Origin: Halobacteriales archaeon QH_2_65_14
GTDB taxonomy: Archaea > Halobacteriota > Halobacteria > Halobacteriales > Haloarculaceae
DNA: 36,592 nucleotides
Direction of reading: 5' to 3'
Assembly (NCBI GenBank): GCA_003021285.1
Contig: PXQO01000049.1
Location: 25,937 to 62,528, forward strand
Part shown: one piece after another, positions 10,116 to 35,562 of the stretch
Layout of the letters: every line of letters begins with the position of its first letter
Numbering within the stretch: position 1 is the first letter of the stretch
Position numbers and translations under genes: made by a program
Notes under the pieces: generated by a model
What the model was told of the DNA's origin: nothing
The model's input: only the letters and a program-made list of their open reading frames with translations
Databases searched by the model: none

Positions 10116-10877
10116 CTAGACGGCGCTTCCTTCGTCCTCGGGTTCCTCGTCGAACTCCCCGCCGTCCCCGTCGCGGATGCGCTGTTCGGCCTCCTCCCGG
10201 TCCTCGGGATAGCCGACGTCGACGCGCCAGCCGTCCATCCGGATGGCGTCGATGGTCCGCCCGGAGTGGATCAGCAGATCGACGGCGTCCGAGAGTTCGA
10301 ACTCGTCACGGTCGGAGGGCTGGACGAGATGGCAGGCGTGGAAAATCTTCGGCGTGAACGTGTAGAACCCGGTCATCACGAGGTTCGTCGGTGGGTCGTC
10401 GGGTTTCTCGACCACCTCGACGATCTCGCCGTACTCGTTGGTGTCACAGACGCCGTACCGGGTGGCCTCGTCCATCGGGACCTCCTCGACGAGGAAGGCG
10501 GCGTCCGCGCGGGACTCGCGCTGGCGGTTGAGGACGTCCCCCAGGTTGGCCCGGAAGACGTTGTCGCCGAGCATCAACACGAAGTCGTCGTCGATGTGGG
10601 ACTCCGCGGTGAGCAACGCGTGGGCCAGTCCCTTCTGCTCGCGCTGGTGGGTGTAGGTGATCGGAACGCCCCGATACTCGTCGTCGTAGCGCTCGATGAT
10701 CTGTTCTTTCTTGTAACCGACGACGACGATGAGTTCGTCGACGTCGAGTTCGATGAGGTTGTCGAAGACGTCCTCGATGAGCGGTTTGCCGTCCACCTCG
10801 ACCAGTGCCTTCGGCTTGTCCTCGGTGAGGGGACGGAGACGCGTCCCCTTGCCGGCGGCTAACACAACTGCTTTCAT
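10116..10877 (-). CDS. aglF: Glucose-1-phosphate nucleotidyltransferase (AglF-like)
   Basis: [35 protein letters not shown] nucleotidyltransferase signature. Confidence 0.88.
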
Positions 10878-10926
10878 TGCTATATGCTCCGACATTCTAC
10901 GGTATATATCTTGGGAGCGATTCGAC

Positions 10927-11125
10927 GGAACTGTTCAGAGAAGAGATTCTCAAAGAGAACTGCGACCAGCATGAAAGCCCCGGCTTGCTGAACTCCCGCG
11001 ACTCGTTGCGGTCCTCGGCCTGTAAGCACCGCAGTGCAACGAGGAGCGCAGCGAGTCACAGCCCGCGAGCGCCTCGGGGCTTTCATGCTGTTCCCGACTC
11101 CAACATTGCTTATCTGAACGCGACC
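10927..11125 (+). mobile_element. Palindromic non-coding repeat element, copy A (MITE-like candidate)
   Basis: Imperfect terminal inverted repeats GGaactGTTCAGAgAAG / GGtcgcGTTCAGATAAG; inner arms CATGAAAGCCCCG...CGGGGCTTTCATG; flanked by 8-bp direct repeat GATTCGAC at 10919-10926 and 11126-11133; related copy at 35381-35562. Confidence 0.7.
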
Positions 11126-11172
11126 GATTCGACAGTATTCGGAAATTCTCGGATGACGGGAGCCGGAACCGC

Positions 11173-35294: not shown

Positions 35295-35380
35295 ACCATC
35301 ACGTACGTCTCCCACCCCAAAACTCCACCTCTCTTCGGACGACGTGAGTGGTCCGCTCGTCGTGCGCCTGTCGTCACGAC

Positions 35381-35562
35381 ATAGTGTTCGGATAAGCAAT
35401 ACTGGAGTTGTAAACAGCATGAAAGGGGCGAAGCGCTCGCCGGCTCCGACTCACTGCGCTCCTCGTTGCACTGCGGTGCTTGCTTCGTCTCGCTCGGCGA
35501 GCGCTTCGCCCCTTTCATGCTGGTCGCAGTTCTCTTTGAGAATCTCTTATCTGAACAGTTCC
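35381..35562 (-). mobile_element. Palindromic non-coding repeat element, copy B (inverted relative to copy A)
   Basis: Reverse complement reads GGAACTGTTCAGATAAGAGATTCTCAAAGAGAACTGCGACCAGCATGAAAGGGGCGAAGCGCTCGCCG...CGGCGAGCGCTTCGCCCCTTTCATGCTG...TTGCTTATCCGAACAC; shares ends and a 31-nt core with copy A. Confidence 0.7.

Follow-up and report, generated by a model that had tools for sequence, protein, structure and literature searches.

IS6-type MITEs upstream of leaderless promoters in a haloarchaeal genome, probably with a rearranged piece of an older, structure-selected cloverleaf as cargo

Two copies, A and B, of a short non-coding repeat lie about 24 kb apart in inverted orientation within the window analysed here, a stretch of 36,592 nucleotides (C49:25937-62528) from a 1.96-Mb haloarchaeal genome that is incomplete (64%) (Table 1). 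The sequences that an earlier sequence-only reading had quoted for the two copies are present where it had placed them, and the outer ends and the core are common to A and B as it described. Both hairpins are also genuine. When folded as single-stranded DNA, copy B (183 bp) and copy A (199 bp) give z values of -8.2 and -6.1, respectively, relative to dinucleotide-preserving shuffles, and none of 200 shuffles folds as well as either copy. Copy A consists of the 5' half of one cloverleaf hairpin (hairpin A) fused to the 3' half of another (hairpin B), and its left tip is located 49 nt upstream of the start codon of an aglF-like gene.

Table 1. Features of copies A and B and of the gene next to copy A, in window coordinates.
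Feature	Position	Strand	Basis
Copy A, IS6-type MITE, internal-deletion hybrid	10927..11125	+	sequence, flanks, module map, fold
Copy A target-site duplication, left, GATTCGAC	10919..10926	+	flank comparison
Copy A target-site duplication, right, GATTCGAC	11126..11133	+	flank comparison
Copy A outer-stem arm CAGCATGAAAGCCCCG	10967..10982	+	sequence and fold
Copy A outer-stem arm CGGGGCTTTCATGCTG	11075..11090	+	sequence and fold
aglF-like gene, UTP-glucose-1-phosphate uridylyltransferase	10116..10877	-	NF041313, 437 bits (cut-off 400), aligned from residue 1
TATA-like box GATATATA of the gene downstream of the copy A left tip	10903..10910	-	sequence between tip and start codon
Copy B, complete but rearranged IS6-type MITE with one cloverleaf hairpin	35380..35562	-	terminal repeats, flanks, module map, fold
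Copy B left terminal inverted repeat GGAACTGTTCAGATAAG	35546..35562	-	terminal repeats and flanks
Copy B other tip, degenerate terminal repeat CATAGTGTTCGGATAAG	35380..35396	+	sequence, flanks
Copy B hairpin arm GGGGCGAAGCGCTCGCCG, stem P1 of cloverleaf half-unit	35425..35442	+	homologous to family stem P1
Copy B complementary arm CGGCGAGCGCTTCGCCCC	35495..35512	+	pairs with 35425-35442 in predicted fold
Copy B core AAGCACCGCAGTGCAACGAGGAGCGCAGTGAGTC	35448..35481	-	sequence and alignment

The family to which A and B belong occupies about 40 dispersed places in the source genome, and 19 of its copies could be delimited end to end. These complete copies are 164-295 bp long, which is too short for a transposase, and none encodes one. 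Most of them end in GG-tipped inverted repeats with TGTTCAGATAAG or close variants, and exact 8-bp target duplications flank 10 of the 19, copy A included (11 of 19 if one off-frame 9-mer is counted). The source genome also encodes a putative IS6-family transposase (PF13610; NF033587 at 176.6 bits, cut-off 125), which sits in a short element with terminal inverted repeats GGCATTGTTCAGATAAG; at a few of 17 positions the ends of this element do not agree with those of the MITEs. Counted by eye, the right tip of this resident element (contig C84) lies about 50 nt upstream of the ATG of the next gene. Two of the 17-bp tips found in the source genome, GGTAGTGTTCAGATAAG and GGCGGTGTTCAGATAAG, recur unchanged at the ends of complete 696-699 bp IS6 transposons of other haloarchaea, and several of these transposons carry 8-bp duplications. 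Given the shared IS6 tips, the 8-bp duplications and the resident IS6 transposase, copies A and B and their family in the source genome are IS6-type MITEs by anatomy, and have presumably moved as such. Copy B fits less well in that, like several other complete copies, it has no target duplication, and it has one degenerate tip and a tip 85 nt from the next start.

Distances from IS6-type tips to the next start codon, with starts called heuristically by GC at the third codon position, show a spike in three data sets. Tips fall 45-53 nt from the start in 17 of 36 cases in the source genome (mostly at 48-49 nt), at 9 of 25 cloverleaf loci of other genomes, and at 10 of 37 autonomous IS6 transposon loci of other genomes. 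If insertion were uniform over tolerated upstream DNA, 5.5% would be expected when weighted by length, or 12.7% per gap; the p values for the spike lie between 1e-12 and 0.014. Starts that follow half-units are preceded by TATA (-29 to -26) and AAA (-35 to -33), as is usual for haloarchaeal leaderless promoters, and the IS6-type tips abut the TATA/BRE region. On these statistics, IS6-type insertion favours DNA just upstream of leaderless promoters, perhaps through docking on the TBP/TFB complex; the spike could also partly reflect where insertion is tolerated. Since autonomous IS6 loci show the same spike, the simplest view is that targeting belongs to the transposase and not to the cloverleaf.

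The differing inner arms of A and B had been interpreted in the sequence-only reading as apparent covariation, and this interpretation is not borne out. In a module map of all 19 complete copies of the source genome, GCCCCG/CGGGGC of copy A is part of the outer stem (CAGCATGAAAGCCCCG/CGGGGCTTTCATGCTG), whereas GGGGCGAAGCGCTCGCCG/CGGCGAGCGCTTCGCCCC of copy B is the stem of one internal hairpin. Because these arms belong to different, non-homologous modules, the pair provides no evidence of compensation. The parent element in this map has a central hairpin flanked by two inverted half-units; the centre is deleted in copy A, and copy B retains a single hairpin. A and B are therefore unlike and yet both paired because an inverted-dimer parent stays self-complementary after a deletion that spans its centre. 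Two copies of a nested palindrome may thus suggest covariation wrongly, even where covariation in the family is real. In addition, the 5' arm of the variable hairpin is absent from about 11 of the 19 complete copies, with runs of N at that place in some, so that the source-genome copies do not look constrained and structure is not visibly maintained there. One copy (L032) is an almost perfect palindrome that looks template-copied. Elsewhere in the source genome, at the end of contig C57, a cloverleaf is contained within a long perfect palindrome, possibly an assembly artefact.

It had also been suggested that A and B could mediate inversion of the DNA between them. For the present arrangement this is contradicted by the perfect 8-bp duplication that is still found on both sides of copy A, as any odd number of A-B inversions would have separated the two matching sequences. 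Synteny of the 11-35 kb segment with relatives of the genus is heavily scrambled. At one orthologous site with flanks that are 96-97% identical (L056 versus L167), the halves of the element appear swapped, as if it had been inverted in place.

The interior of the element is probably descended from a cloverleaf found in most of the haloarchaeal genera sampled. Of 60 relatives, 31 have matches to parts of the element, and the seed GGGACTGAAAGGGGC is present in 108 of 195 genomes of the order, with a patchy distribution and up to 67 occurrences per genome; the reversed seed, used as a control, is present in none of the 195. At least 117 stretches match in bacterial and archaeal species genomes, and all among the matches listed are haloarchaeal, including Haloarcula, Halonotius, Halovenus, Haloterrigena, Natronococcus, Halorarius and others. 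Matches in named plasmids lie almost entirely in intergenic DNA without annotation. Complete copies are predicted to be able to fold as a four-way junction of outer stem, hairpin A, central hairpin (TTTCAGTCCC.../...GGGACTGAAA) and hairpin B, and the cloverleaf contains two inverted, outward-facing half-units, each of the form 5'-GGG[TC]GGGACTGAAAGGGG-(variable stem and core)-GGGGCTTTC. Rfam has no counterpart that reaches the gathering score, the matches below it being mostly to microRNA models, and phage records contain no match to the element. The 15-nt seed occurs in 16 IMG/VR viral contigs. A search of open-access papers by sequence string and keyword returned no earlier description.

Two further observations concern the surroundings of half-units. 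About 130 nt upstream of one conserved half-unit are nearly invariant in six species (alignment A1, columns 1-140); this stretch has no Rfam match and is possibly part of a longer structured RNA. Another haloarchaeal module, GCGAGGGAYGAGCG...GGCTGGGGAGG, is found near half-units in either orientation at seven loci. A role as transcription terminator was rejected on the basis that convergent gaps are not enriched (13 of 82 elements versus 35 of 214 background gaps), as was a dedicated partner gene next door, there being no recurrent convincing family among 4476 neighbouring ORFs.

Covariation is evident across the family as a whole. An arm-blind sample of 254 units, comprising every exact seed together with the next GGGCTTTC and applying no criterion to the arms, gives an arm match of 91.5% compared to 53.0% when shuffled (maximum 55.9%), and 10 or 11 of 11 positions are paired in 214 of these units. 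In an alignment of 66 half-units that were picked for distinct arms, a choice that favours variation while shuffled and slid controls address pairing, double-sided changes are seen in 23 of 32 predicted pairs, and the covariation score is 0.523 versus 0.147 for shuffled and 0.039-0.066 for slid partners. Clear helices on the unit strand contain 51 G.U and 11 A.C pairs. The corresponding counts are 48 and 13 in the arm-blind set, and 38 and 13 when one sequence is taken per distinct arm (p 0.0006). Single pair states (C-G 37, U.G 21, U-A 6) place G.U as an intermediate between C-G and U-A. Moreover, the unpaired motifs of the half-unit are invariant; GGG[TC] 5' of the seed is conserved at about 83-99% per position, 207 of 211 arm-defined units have a run of G after the 3' arm, and the half-unit has four G-tracts without Watson-Crick pairing to each other.

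Orthologous sites show several kinds of change. Both arms of one half are altered in step at a site with flanks about 90% identical, and the arms at another site are identical letter for letter in six species with diverged flanks. Whole arms differ at further sites, implying that module exchange occurs too. The large excess of G.U over A.C on one strand suggests that a single-stranded RNA or DNA is constrained, and selection on single-stranded structure, in either RNA or ssDNA, is the best reading of the family alignments; ssDNA accounts for the tolerance of G.T equally well as RNA does. The earlier proposal that selection acts on hairpin structure is thus supported for the family, on the strength of covariation and strand-specific wobble pairs, and not for the source-genome copies, many of which lack the 5' arm of the variable hairpin.

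The tails 3' of GGGGCTTTC in 234 half-units are about 40 nt long and have a strong three-nucleotide rhythm in fixed phase. G amounts to about 10% at every third position versus about 27%, and C to about 42%, in all taxa sampled. Protein coding was rejected as the source of this rhythm because the periodic frame is interrupted by stops on either strand. Where a genome lacks IS6-type tips (e.g., at L200, L204, L152 and L065), the boundary of the element lies at CTAG, with the consensus TTSCTAGC. This boundary is in phase with the triplet rhythm in 44 of 52 cases and is often 41-50 nt upstream of a start codon, and at orthologous sites the flanks agree outside it and differ inside. As the cloverleaf ends at CTAG and not at an IS6-type tip in many genera, IS6 mobilisation leaves part of the family unexplained. 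At five loci, some copies have the tail in a tandem repeat (GCTAGC-GGGGCTTTC-tail or similar).

Paired arms might also be a product of mutation bias, with template switching or gene conversion in palindromes rewriting one arm from the other in place of selection. Some source-genome copies do look template-copied, L032 above all, and whole arms differ between some orthologous sites. Copying of arms is strand-blind, however, and the preponderance of G.U over A.C on one strand, which persists when each distinct arm is counted once, is not what it predicts; nor are the G.U intermediates between C-G and U-A or the invariant unpaired motifs. Strand-biased cytosine deamination might mimic part of the wobble asymmetry, and on balance we consider mutation bias unlikely. 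Slightly more unlikely still is the view that every copy, A and B included, now functions as a cis-acting RNA or regulatory element maintained by selection, with mobility being incidental. Such a role would be in keeping with the strong family covariation, the intergenic location upstream of promoters, and the conservation of one locus in six species, but the patchy distribution and the missing 5' arms in the source genome speak against it. Moreover, autonomous IS6 loci share the promoter-upstream position, and so position is no argument for regulation.

Relationships to other mobile systems fare less well. A REP/BIME-like origin, in which a dedicated Y1 (RAYT-type) transposase processes inverted oriented hairpins as single-stranded DNA, would share with the present element those same hairpins, a conserved foot motif and a strand preference. 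A RAYT-like Y1 enzyme was nevertheless rejected because its presence does not track the copies: none was found in the copy-rich genomes G000, G070, G125 and G159, whereas G020, G023, G119 and G160 have the transposase and zero copies. The GTAG tag is also absent and the source-genome copies have terminal inverted repeats and 8-bp duplications, and we regard this origin as very unlikely. We give almost no weight to the idea that the element represents right ends or omega-RNA of IS605/TnpB transposons, or the palindrome-associated elements (PATEs) derived from IS605 ends, even though it is structured, dispersed and haloarchaeal and PATEs abound in Haloquadratum (PMC3119063). Neither the exact motif nor GGGGCTTTC occurs at any of 30 TnpB loci from motif-rich genomes, on which ground a right end or omega-RNA was rejected, the sole match being one single-mismatch motif far from the TnpB gene. 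In addition, the portions of PMC3119063 that deal with PATEs describe them without terminal inverted repeats or target duplications, and copies here have both.

Overall, A and B are probably IS6-type MITEs with promoter-upstream insertion, whose cargo is a rearranged piece of an older, structure-selected cloverleaf. An IS6-family DDE transposase would recognise the GG...TGTTCAGATAAG tips and move the non-autonomous A and B in trans, leaving 8-bp target duplications and placing the tip 48-49 nt from the start of leaderless genes, possibly by docking on the TBP/TFB complex. The widespread haloarchaeal cloverleaf from which the cargo would derive has two half-units, inverted and facing outwards, together with an outer stem and a central hairpin; the covariation suggests that selection on one strand, whether as RNA or as single-stranded DNA, keeps the stems in the family paired. 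Centre-spanning deletions of this inverted-dimer parent would yield products, such as A and B, that are still self-complementary.

A more speculative proposal, which we hold only tentatively and think somewhat doubtful, joins an undescribed strand-specific element with IS6 docking on TBP/TFB at a fixed distance. The arrangement GGG-N-GGG-N7-GGGG-(covarying stem-loop)-GGGG could form a quadruplex-duplex hybrid in the K+-rich cytoplasm, to be followed by the rhythmic non-coding tail, and a dedicated RNA- or ssDNA-binding protein might read the half-unit. G4 formation has been reported in Haloferax volcanii (PMC12873603), and the parts of that paper concerned with G4 do not mention the cloverleaf element. 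If the overall reading of A, B and their family is right, a structured element is present in over half of haloarchaeal genomes; its base-pair covariation is exceptionally strong, it has no match in Rfam and goes unannotated in the plasmid records examined, and something must recognise its fold. Promoter-upstream IS6-type insertion at 48-49 nt would then represent transposition aimed at the archaeal promoter complex, and haloarchaea that are easily handled, Haloferax volcanii for example, would allow a direct test.

Insertion at a fixed distance from the transcription start is also seen for the Ty1/Ty3 retrotransposons of yeast, which achieve it through the initiation machinery; the element and enzyme are unrelated, however, the present case being an archaeal DNA element for which docking is a conjecture. 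REPINs and BIMEs with their RAYT resemble the family in having inverted oriented hairpins, a conserved foot motif, variable covarying stems and tens of copies per genome, and differ from it in that the present element has no GTAG tag and no Y1 correlation, and has G-tract motifs, a larger cloverleaf, terminal inverted repeats and target duplications. Haloarchaeal PATEs and SMRs are likewise palindromic repeats without transposase that reach tens of copies, SMR-A being about 110 bp long and targeting PATEs, but the sections of PMC3119063 that describe them report no covariation. The closest likeness in anatomy is to IS6-family MITEs, two of which are mentioned in a review covering archaeal IS6 clades (PMC7986276), and which share GG-tipped terminal repeats with TGTT, an 8-bp duplication, the lack of coding capacity and an IS6 transposase in the genome. 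The family described here differs from these in its fixed-distance insertion upstream of promoters, a feature absent from the passages of that review on such elements, and in its cargo, a piece of a conserved cloverleaf whose occurrence extends well beyond IS6 tips.
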